NCBI GenBank assembly: GCA_018822805.1
Contig: JAHJJU010000091.1
Span: 1-41,328, forward strand
Direction: 5' to 3'
Origin: a bacterium
GTDB lineage: Bacteria > Campylobacterota > Campylobacteria > Campylobacterales > Sulfurovaceae
Length of the DNA stretch: 41,328 bases
Shown: piece by piece, positions 27,229-30,275 of the stretch
How positions within the stretch are numbered: position 1 is the first letter of the stretch
Layout: each line of letters begins with the position of its first letter
The notes under the pieces: model-generated
The model's database searches: none
What the model was told of the DNA's origin: nothing
Seen by the model: only the letters and a program-made list of their open reading frames with translations
Made by a program: the position numbers and the translations under genes

Positions 27229-28455
27229 TTATAACTTCAACTCAAATACATTATTACCATTTTTATGGTAGTAGCTTAACGTATATTTTAAACGTTGTGC
27301 AATATTGTTCACAATATAGAGCCCTAACCCAAAACCACTGTTTCTCTTTTCTTCTTGGGTGAAGGGTTCAAGGTAGTAAGAAAGTGGATGTTCTAAGCTT
27401 TTTCCTGTTGAGATAACTTTAATACTTGACGGGTTTGTGATAATGGTGGCTTTTTCATCATCGCTGTACTTGAGTGCATTATCAAGAAGATTTTTAATGG
27501 CTAGGGTTAAGAGTTTTGTGTCTGTAACCAGCGTTTCTCCTTGGGTTTGAATGGTAAGTTTACTTCGATCACAGAGTAATAGAGCAATGCTATCGTCAAT
27601 AATATCATCTATTTTTGCTTTGTTCATGTGGGGTTGAAAGTTTTGTGTGGTCAGACGTTCAACATGTGCCAGTTCAGCAATGAGTTCATTCATCCGTTCA
27701 AAAGCCCGAATGAGTGTCTGCTTACTACTTCCTTCTTCTACCATTTCAATGGCAATACGCCCCCGTGTTATGGGTGTTTTAAGTTCATGCATCATGTTAC
27801 GCATAAAGAGATTTTTTGAATCAAGCAGGGTACGTATGTGGTGTATGGCATTATCAAAACTTTGTGCAATTTTCCCTATTTCGTCATTACTTTTTTGGGT
27901 AATTTTGATGTTCATGTTTCCCTTAGCAAACTCTTCTATCTGTTTATTTAGTTTTTTAAGAGGTGAAAGTTTTCTAATAATGGCAACATAAAGAAAAATA
28001 AATAGAATGGCAATGAGCATGGCGATCAAAATGGTAATTTGAATACGTAAGTTTTCAGACTGATTATCTTTAAGCATAAGGTTGTATCCGTAGCGTTGAA
28101 GATAGATGTATTTGTTTTCACCAATAGCAAAGATTTGCATACGTCCATAGACCGATTCACCTTCAAAAACAACCGTTCCTTTACTTAAAATAAGTAGACG
28201 GCTCTCATTAATTGAGACAGGTTTTACCTGAAAGTTTTCATAAAATCGTTCTTGTTCCTCTTTAGAAGGATTGAGCTGGGCTGTGGAGAGAAGGAGATTT
28301 GAGATAAGTTTGTAACGGTTAAGTTCATCAAGTCGTTGTCGCTCTTTGTCCCAAGAAATAAAGAGAAACAGTGCTATCAAAAGTAGAGAAAGTACCAGTG
28401 CAAAGAGGGTGTTAATAAAGGCATTAACCGATATGTTTCTCATAATGTTTCGCAC
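27229..28455 (-). CDS. Sensor histidine kinase, ArsS-like
   Basis: This membrane kinase of 408 residues has membrane helices at about 11-34 and 139-160, enclosing a roughly 100-residue periplasmic sensor region. A HAMP linker (about 160-210) is followed by the HisKA phospho-acceptor H223 in FMRNMMHELKTPITRGRIAI. The ATPase domain contains NLLDNALKYS (N box) and the glycine box FGLGLYIVNNIAQ. The HELKTPI-RGR sequence matches the ArsS-type acid-response kinases of Helicobacter and Campylobacter as I recall them. It starts within the stop of its response-regulator gene, so the pair is coupled. The stimulus here is unknown. Confidence 0.85.
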   Translation of the reverse strand: MRNIMRNISVNAFINTLFALVLSLLLIALFLFISWDKERQRLDELNRYKLISNLLLSTAQLNPSKEEQERFYENFQVKPVSINESRLLILSKGTVVFEGESVYGRMQIFAIGENKYIYLQRYGYNLMLKDNQSENLRIQITILIAMLIAILFIFLYVAIIRKLSPLKKLNKQIEEFAKGNMNIKITQKSNDEIGKIAQSFDNAIHHIRTLLDSKNLFMRNMMHELKTPITRGRIAIEMVEEGSSKQTLIRAFERMNELIAELAHVERLTTQNFQPHMNKAKIDDIIDDSIALLLCDRSKLTIQTQGETLVTDTKLLTLAIKNLLDNALKYSDDEKATIITNPSSIKVISTGKSLEHPLSYYLEPFTQEEKRNSGFGLGLYIVNNIAQRLKYTLSYYHKNGNNVFELKL

Positions 28456-29132
28456 TAAATTTTCTCAGTTAATAGGTATCCGATACCTCGCACAGGTTTA
28501 ATATAGGATGTTTTGTTATCAATAAGTGAAAGTTTTTGACGAATACGTGAGATGATAACATCAATATTTTTAATGGAACTGTTGTCATCAATATGTTCAC
28601 TTTCATAAAGCAGTTGTTCTCTTGAAACAGCTGAATTTTTATGTTGAATTAAAATGGATAAAATATCATATTCTGCAGCTGTAAGTTCGAGCAATATATC
28701 TTTAAAGATAATGTGCCGTGCTTTGGTATTGAGTTCAAAAAGTGTATTTGGAGTCTCTTTCTCTTTACTGTTGTTGGTTCTTCTTAAAATGGTTTTAATT
28801 CGTGTGACCAATTCTCGTGGATCATAAGGCTTAGGCATGTAGTCATCGGCACCTCGCTCCATAGCGATTACTTTATCGGTAATGTCATCTCGTGCTGATG
28901 AAACAATAATAGGGATAGAAGAGTGTGCACGTATTTTAGGAATAATTTCAAGTCCATCAATTCCCGGAAGTGTCAAGTCTAAGATTAGGAGATCAAAATT
29001 ATGTTGGGTAAGTAAAGAGAGTCCCATATACGGTTCTTCTGCAGCCATGACGGTAATGTCAAATTTATTAAGATACTCGGTGAGAATTTGAGAAATCTCA
29101 TAATCATCTTCAATCATTAAAATTTTTATAAT
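28455..29132 (-). CDS. OmpR-family response regulator with probable ATT start
   Basis: This transcription regulator pairs with the kinase encoded next. The receiver has the acidic pair in MIEDDYEI, phospho-acceptor D52 in LLILDLTLPGIDG, Ser/Ala in SSARDD and Lys in YMPKPYDP. The winged-helix DNA-binding domain ends SYIKPVRGIGYLLT. The first ATG (29117) lies mid-way through the first strand and 21 bases after the only SD. The in-frame codons upstream spell I-I-K-I-L, and ATT at 29132 is six bases after AAGGA, so I extend the gene to ATT. No ATG, GTG or TTG is available before the in-frame stop. An ATG-initiated form would be 220 residues; this one is 225. Confidence 0.85.
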   Translation of the reverse strand: MIKILMIEDDYEISQILTEYLNKFDITVMAAEEPYMGLSLLTQHNFDLLILDLTLPGIDGLEIIPKIRAHSSIPIIVSSARDDITDKVIAMERGADDYMPKPYDPRELVTRIKTILRRTNNSKEKETPNTLFELNTKARHIIFKDILLELTAAEYDILSILIQHKNSAVSREQLLYESEHIDDNSSIKNIDVIISRIRQKLSLIDNKTSYIKPVRGIGYLLTEKI

Positions 29133-29193
29133 AACAAATCCTTAAAATTGGTATAGAGTAATCATAACATGAGAAGCGTTAAAAGTAAGAACA

Positions 29194-29317
29194 AAATGTC
29201 ATCAACATTGCTCACGAGGGCTATTACAAAGGAGGTCTAAATATGTTCTATCAAGGGAGTATATTTCAAAGGAGTTCAATTACATACTTAATCTCGTGAA
29301 CAATGTTGATGACATTT
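29194..29317 (+). ncRNA. Candidate hairpin RNA element with internal small ORF
   Basis: Two 25-base arms (29194-29218 and 29293-29317) are complementary at 24 positions and enclose 74 bases. The right arm is followed by CTTTTTGTT, like a terminator tail on the plus strand. The loop carries three SD-like motifs: AAAGGAG at 29228 and 29268, AAGGGAG at 29253. The element lies between the response-regulator and lgt promoters. It could be a small RNA, a type I toxin-like unit or a MITE-like insertion; no target duplication is visible. Confidence 0.45.
29243..29299 (+). CDS. Candidate 18-codon ORF inside the hairpin element
   Basis: AAAGGAGG (29228-29235) is a perfect SD placed seven bases before ATG 29243. 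The frame encodes MFYQGSIFQRSSITYLIS and ends with TGA at 29297-29299, inside the right arm of the stem. The start lies in the loop, so translation would be possible while the stem is formed. The peptide is short and only moderately hydrophobic. No family is recognised. The SD is stronger than that of most genes here, which is the main reason to list it. Confidence 0.35.
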   Translation: MFYQGSIFQRSSITYLIS

Positions 29318-29396
29318 CTTTTTGTTGACAGTATTATAAGGAATCACTATTAATACTCAAACAATGGATTATTAATGAATAGTTAATGGTCTAAGA

Positions 29397-29433
29397 TGTT
29401 ATACTTCGCGTAATTTAAGTTTTATACAAAGGA
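29397..29433 (+). promoter_or_regulatory. lgt promoter and SD
   Basis: The extended -10 TGTTATACT (TATACT at 29400-29405) is followed by SD AAAGGA (29428-29433), five bases before ATG 29439. A TTGACA at 29325-29330 lies further upstream and could serve a second promoter. Confidence 0.45.
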
Positions 29434-29438
29434 ATCTT

Positions 29439-30275
29439 ATGGAGTTTTGGAATCACATCTATGAGCATTTTAATCCGGTTGCTGTTGATTTTGGATTTAT
29501 ATCGGTACATTGGTATGGCATTATGTATATCTCTGCTTTACTTGTGGCACTTTGGTTTGCAAAATGGATTATCAAAAGAGATGCCATGCCTATTCCTGAT
29601 GATACCATTGATAGCTATTTTATATGGATTGAAGTGGGTATTATTTTAGGAGCACGTATTTGGTACATTCTTTTTTATGATTCGAATACACTCTTTTATT
29701 TTACTCAACCATGGCAAATTTTTAATCCTTTTTCAAATGGTGAGTTTGTTGGTATACGGGGTATGAGTTACCATGGTGCTGTAGTGGGAGCTGCCATTGC
29801 CTCTTACTTGTTTGCCCGAAGAAATCCAGGAGAGATTTATAAAATTCTTGATGTTGTGGCATTGGCAGTACCTGTTGGATTTGTTTTTGGAAGAATTGGA
29901 AACTTTTTAAATCAAGAATTGGTTGGACGAGCTACAGATGTACCATGGGGAATTTATGTTGATGGTGTTTTACGCCACCCATCTCAACTTTATGAAGGCT
30001 TTATGGAAGGTATTGTGGTTGCGATATTGATTTATATCTATCGTAAATATAAACGATTTGATGGTGCTTTGATTGGTATCTATGGAATTCTTTATGGTAC
30101 AGCTCGATTTGTGGCTGAGTTTTGGAGAGAGCCGGACAGTCAATTGGGGTATCTCTATGGCGATTGGCTTACCATGGGACAATTACAAAGTCTTATTATG
30201 ATTGGGTTAGCAATTGGACTCTATTTTACATTTCAAGTGTTTTCAAAAAAGCATCAAGTCACAAATAAACTGTAG
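29439..30275 (+). CDS. lgt: Prolipoprotein diacylglyceryl transferase
   Basis: Lgt transfers diacylglycerol from phosphatidylglycerol to the lipobox cysteine of prolipoproteins in the inner membrane. The 278 residues contain about seven helices. The family signature is GRIGNFLNQELVGRATDVPW (151-170, with the key Arg), MSYHGAVVGA (H112) and RHPSQLYEG (179-187). It would process the lipoproteins encoded at 21810 and 26317. It stands alone downstream of the hairpin element, with its own promoter. Confidence 0.94.
   Translation: MEFWNHIYEHFNPVAVDFGFISVHWYGIMYISALLVALWFAKWIIKRDAMPIPDDTIDSYFIWIEVGIILGARIWYILFYDSNTLFYFTQPWQIFNPFSNGEFVGIRGMSYHGAVVGAAIASYLFARRNPGEIYKILDVVALAVPVGFVFGRIGNFLNQELVGRATDVPWGIYVDGVLRHPSQLYEGFMEGIVVAILIYIYRKYKRFDGALIGIYGILYGTARFVAEFWREPDSQLGYLYGDWLTMGQLQSLIMIGLAIGLYFTFQVFSKKHQVTNKL

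Follow-up and report, generated by a model that had tools for sequence, protein, structure and literature searches.

A conserved hairpin upstream of lgt in a member of the Sulfurovaceae is probably a minus-strand gene for a small RNA with anti-Shine–Dalgarno motifs and a predicted response-regulator promoter

The window analysed here comprises the 41,328 nucleotides of contig JAHJJU010000091.1 (assembly GCA_018822805.1) from a bacterium of the family Sulfurovaceae. A two-component system is encoded on its minus strand by an OmpR-family response regulator (RR; 28455–29117), presumed to be an activator, and a sensor histidine kinase (HK; 27229–28455), which was assigned to the ArsS family (CprRS/ArsRS-type systems) with a score of 402 bits against NF038389 (cut-off 250 bits). 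The pair is presumably orthologous to CprRS. A candidate −10 box of the RR-HK operon itself (TATGAT, 29161–29166, minus strand) was picked by eye and reads TANNAT in most relatives. The divergent neighbour is lgt (29439–30275, plus strand; TIGR00544).

A hairpin element lies at 29193–29318 between the RR gene and lgt. Its plus strand folded with −46.2 kcal/mol (z = −7.6), a value equalled by none of 200 shuffles, and the element is thus real and much stronger than chance. It is built on a 25 bp inverted repeat in which 29194–29218 pairs with 29293–29317 (96% complementary); the single mispair, C·A on the plus strand, is a G·U pair on the minus strand. An initial annotation had described this stem together with a Shine–Dalgarno (SD) sequence (AAAGGAGG...ATG), an 18-codon open reading frame (ORF; 29243–29299, plus strand) and two further SD-like motifs, all of which are present, and had proposed an independent small transcription unit, a proposal that the conservation of stem and loop supports.

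Genome search gave one copy of the element in its own genome. DNA search recovered it in 28 genomes of the genus at 74–97% identity, a covariance model matched 28 of the 34 genus genomes, and in all cases with a checkable neighbour the element was positioned upstream of lgt, so that this hairpin has been kept in most of the genus. Among 175 family genomes the covariance model gave no convincing match apart from these 28; one match outside the genus (L161) fell on a protein-coding region and was judged to be due to chance, and plasmid searches gave chance matches only. In two relatives (L049 and L051) neither degP nor the RNA element lies between the RR gene and lgt. Two contigs of one draft assembly (G002, C16 and C64) both terminate within the hairpin, and the missing element in some draft genomes may therefore be an artefact. 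In the alignment the loop is near-invariant and more conserved than the stem, which varies with compensation: 97% of the stem cells are paired, nine pairs are changed on both sides and no shuffle was as good. The expected conservation in relatives therefore holds for the stem and fails for the ORF, which across the 28 sequences has ten lengths between 3 and 32 codons, with frame-breaking indels, and is judged to be no gene.

As judged from the sequence, the element works most likely from the minus strand, opposite to that initially annotated; the RNA was assigned to this strand because the promoter, the G·U asymmetry of the stem and three sibling genes (see below) all place it there. Explicit stem pairs were counted for this question and minimum-free-energy pair counts were discarded because they are confounded by loop pairing. 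There were 48 cells with G·U on the minus strand (A·C on the plus strand) versus 21 with G·U on the plus strand, two positions supplying part of this asymmetry. The RNAalifold consensus fold was −28.8 for the minus strand versus −21.9 for the plus strand, and in a plus-strand reading two pairs in the middle of the stem are lost, one in 16 and the other in 12 of 24 sequences. The U-rich tail noted earlier exists, but it is equally U-rich on both strands (mean 8.5 T of 14); it therefore does not set the direction and was dropped as strand evidence. On the minus strand the window RNA lacks a strong intrinsic terminator, and in some relatives the U run is missing there, so that the RNA could run on into the RR gene.

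The coordinates first given for the element stop short of a minus-strand −10 box (TATAAT, ATTATA on the plus strand; 29333–29338), which is invariant in 27 of 27 sequences with variable flanks, and of a fourfold repeat (29349–29387, minus strand; ATTAAC, ATTAAT, ATTGTT and ATTAAT at exact 11 bp spacing), which is conserved in relatives and is predicted to be a response-regulator site. Four RTTAAY repeats at 11 bp spacing are a layout typical of OmpR-family sites. The adjacent two-component system is thus the likely regulator, so that the neighbours, contrary to the earlier statement, do explain the element. The repeat region is the common upstream region of the RNA and lgt: at 29350–29405 the repeats are followed by a TATACT-like plus-strand −10 box of lgt, and the response regulator may control lgt too. 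In one relative (L254, G005:C47) the regulator box directly precedes an lgt reading frame that is truncated at its N-terminus, a deletion or an assembly join being possible causes.

The small RNA gene is placed at 29190–29327 on the minus strand, with a start at about 29327 predicted from the −10 box and a 3′ end predicted near 29190 or tens of bases beyond it. The RNA forms one long hairpin whose stem, 26 bp by alignment and folding, has its 5′ arm at 29293–29318 and its 3′ arm at 29193–29218. The predicted loop contains three anti-SD motifs, CUCCUUUG, CUCCCUUG and CCUCCUUUG, located from sequence and alignment: motif A (CUCCUUUG, 29267–29274, minus strand) is presented by an inner hairpin (AGUAUGU/AUAUACU, 29258–29288, minus strand, from folding), motif B (ACUCCCUUGAU) lies at 29250–29260 and motif C (ACCUCCUUUGUAAUA), of which the CCUCCUUUGUAAUA part is invariant, at 29222–29236, both on the minus strand. 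Together with its flank, motif C is the complement of a complete start region, UAUUACAAAGGAGGUCUAAAUAUG; this explains the perfect SD and the start codon that had been read on the opposite strand. The earlier suggestion of an anti-SD titrator was right in an unintended sense, since the transcribed strand carries anti-SD motifs and not SDs. In Rfam the window region gave weak microRNA/snoRNA noise only, and covariance models, that of LhrC included, gave no gathering-threshold match in the sibling loci; the RNA family was not found described in the open-licence literature. The family is apparently undescribed; in function it belongs to a known kind, but its architecture and host range are its own.

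The 55-base promoter pattern RTTAAY-N5-RTTAAY-N5-RTT-N8-RTTNAY-N10-TANNNT (up to two mismatches) occurred at exactly four sites in the genome of the window, and its reversed control at none. These are the window element, the degP leader (C31) and two intergenic regions (C52 and C55); at all four the same strand continues into a structured RNA whose loops are rich in C and carry CUCC, and the direct repeats stand at a fixed distance from the −10 box in every copy. GACCUCCUUUGUAAUA is common to the C55 and window RNAs, and AUGAAAGAU begins three of the four RNAs and can close with a later CUUUC. The RNA before degP (L191, G000:C31:11501–13124) has GAAAG/CUUUC ends and C-rich loops, and a small RNA may be part of the degP mRNA or be freed from it; the two intergenic genes (L193, G000:C52:15315; L194, G000:C55:43359) carry no annotation. 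A slightly altered pattern matched 68 of 175 family genomes and 33 of 34 in the genus (control 0), almost every genome of the genus having one to eight promoter sites. CUCC lies within 170 nt downstream in 62 of the 64 genus sites with enough sequence, being absent from two promoter-like sites (the second sites in L248 and L254); the means over the 64 sites were 3.08 for CUCC and 0.05 for GGAG, with a CUCC background of 0.34. The mean unpaired probability of CUCC was 0.90 versus 0.48 elsewhere, so that these RNAs carry several CU-rich sites in loops or single strands, as in LhrC. GAAAG and CUUUC ends occur together in 57 of the 64. In other genera of the family CUCC follows 29 of 30 sites, often as CUCCUUGUUU.

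Across the order 74 of 399 genomes contained the pattern, with one control match. In a further family (f8) it precedes short RNAs (L335–L354, L357 and L358) that combine a hairpin and UCUCCUCCU or UUUCCUUG with an intrinsic terminator bearing a long T run. Some of them are arranged in tandem, with copies about 195 bases apart, and a distinct subgroup has UUUCCUUGUGU in place of CUCC. The same box also precedes degP-RR-HK operons in this family, the products of which are 58–61% (RR) and 40–41% (HK) identical to those of the window, so that an independent lineage links the box and this regulator through its operon structure. In the sister genera the gene order is lgt, degP, RR, HK, and in the genus of the window the RNA occupies the place of degP, which is located elsewhere and preceded there by a box of its own. 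The degP-RR-HK order of the sister genera and f8 is presumably comparable to the CprRS–htrA gene order of Campylobacter jejuni.

Several other explanations of the element were weighed. An unlikely one is that the minus-strand hairpin is a cis-acting leader, i.e. the 5′ untranslated region of the RR/kinase operon serving as an attenuator or RNase III site, with no action in trans. The RR start codon follows about 75 nt past the hairpin on the same strand, the terminator signal is weak in some relatives and the sibling C31 is situated directly within the degP leader; however, a separate −10-like box precedes the RR gene, the genes that C52 faces lie on the other strand, f8 has copies that stand alone and end in full terminators, and a leader would have no need of three unpaired, near-invariant anti-SD motifs. 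It is considerably less probable that the hairpin acts at the DNA level as a MITE or as a replication or recombination hairpin. A perfect inverted repeat and the breaks in the G002 assemblies would suit such an element, yet it is a single copy in the same, orthologous place in 28 genomes, its loop is conserved beyond its stem and a promoter is attached to it.

Two explanations require the plus strand. The initial annotation had listed among its possibilities a small mRNA whose SD and ORF yield a type I toxin-like peptide or form part of a dual-function RNA, and the SD and ATG are indeed conserved, with MFYQGSI in most sequences. We regard this as very improbable, if marginally less so than a DNA-level element: besides the frame-breaking length variation, which in L030 leaves a stop after three codons, synonymous sites are conserved like the rest, no conserved plus-strand promoter was seen by eye and the siblings share CUCC and not an ORF. 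The least credible alternative is a GGA-rich, CsrB-like RNA that titrates CsrA, as the three CAARGGAG repeats on the plus strand could suggest. The strand evidence is contrary, and CsrA is absent from 37 of 37 genus and family genomes and present in 18 of 23 others, so that a CsrB/C-type titrator would require an unknown GGA-binding protein and is otherwise refuted.

The element is therefore best explained, with good though not complete confidence, as a minus-strand gene for a trans-acting small RNA that would be activated by the response regulator and would block ribosome-binding sites through its anti-SD motifs. In the proposed mechanism an OmpR-family RR, most likely that at 28455–29117 with its partner kinase of the ArsS family (a pair akin to the Campylobacter envelope system CprRS), would bind the four 11 bp-spaced repeats and activate, rather than repress, a promoter that possesses a −10 box only. 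The minus-strand transcript would fold into a long hairpin that shields both of its ends and displays the three C-rich motifs, which would base-pair at the ribosome-binding sites of target mRNAs and so prevent translation without Hfq; Hfq is absent from 41 of 41 genomes. Since the genome contains four such RNAs, induction of degP by the regulator would go along with simultaneous repression of several mRNAs, and the copy inside the degP leader means that one transcript may serve both as protease mRNA and as repressor. We lean slightly towards a broader scheme in which a CprR/ArsR-type RR drives, in much of the order, both degP-RR-HK and fast-evolving, multicopy, Hfq-independent anti-SD RNAs, with one copy in the degP leader and, in this genus, one in the degP place beside lgt.

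Target prediction covered about a fifth of the genome, within which exported proteins were not enriched among the predicted targets (P 0.13–0.58). The top-ranked duplexes in this part involved two adjacent ORFs (L201) that appear ccoN/ccoO-like (cytochrome-oxidase-like) by eye. Porin-like genes with extended complementary matches were found in relatives L131, L132 and L305; TTACAAAGGA sites precede porins, but HU, a nuoA-like gene and further genes have them too. Pairing through the anti-SD sequence alone is unspecific.

Few small RNAs of the Campylobacterota have a known regulator. If the proposal is true, the order would have its own Hfq-free equivalent of the RNAs that other bacteria use in envelope stress, and members of the family can be searched for directly with the 55-base pattern and tested in cultured species. 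The C. jejuni RNA CJnc230 blocks ribosome-binding sites through a single-stranded anti-SD sequence (PMC11187230) and is thus another Campylobacterota RNA of this kind, but it is under flagellar control, is a single copy and has one short CCUU motif. CprRS contributes to the control of the C. jejuni envelope genes htrA, peb4 and lspA (PMC4518328); the association of an RR and kinase with envelope genes such as htrA resembles the degP-RR-HK order of the sister genera and f8, whereas excerpts of the reports on that regulon mention no small RNA (PMC4518328, PMC7887314). The streptococcal csRNAs are controlled by CiaRH, whose RR binds the 11 bp-spaced direct repeats TTTAAG-N5-TTTAAG, and their sequences complement ribosome-binding sites as well as start codons (PMC8186281, PMC3091779). 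They share with the present family the several similar RNAs, the 11 bp-spaced repeats before the promoter and the complementarity to ribosome-binding sites; here, however, the repeat is RTTAAY, present four times, the fold is different and the bacteria are unrelated. The precedent studied most thoroughly is LhrC: in Listeria monocytogenes its five copies (LhrC1–5) are all LisRK-dependent and pair through three redundant CU-rich sites (UCCC), located in loops or single strands, with the SD region, which they block, Hfq being required neither for stability nor for target pairing (PMC4132741). The likeness lies in multicopy RNAs under one envelope-stress two-component system, predicted in the present case, with CU-rich sites in loops. 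The RNAs described here differ in having no Rfam match and a Gram-negative campylobacterotal host, in that the window RNA is one long hairpin and its siblings are two hairpins between GAAAG and CUUUC ends, and in that one copy resides within the degP leader; the same solution of a two-component system, multiple copies and CU-rich anti-SD loops would thus have arisen outside Listeria and the streptococci.
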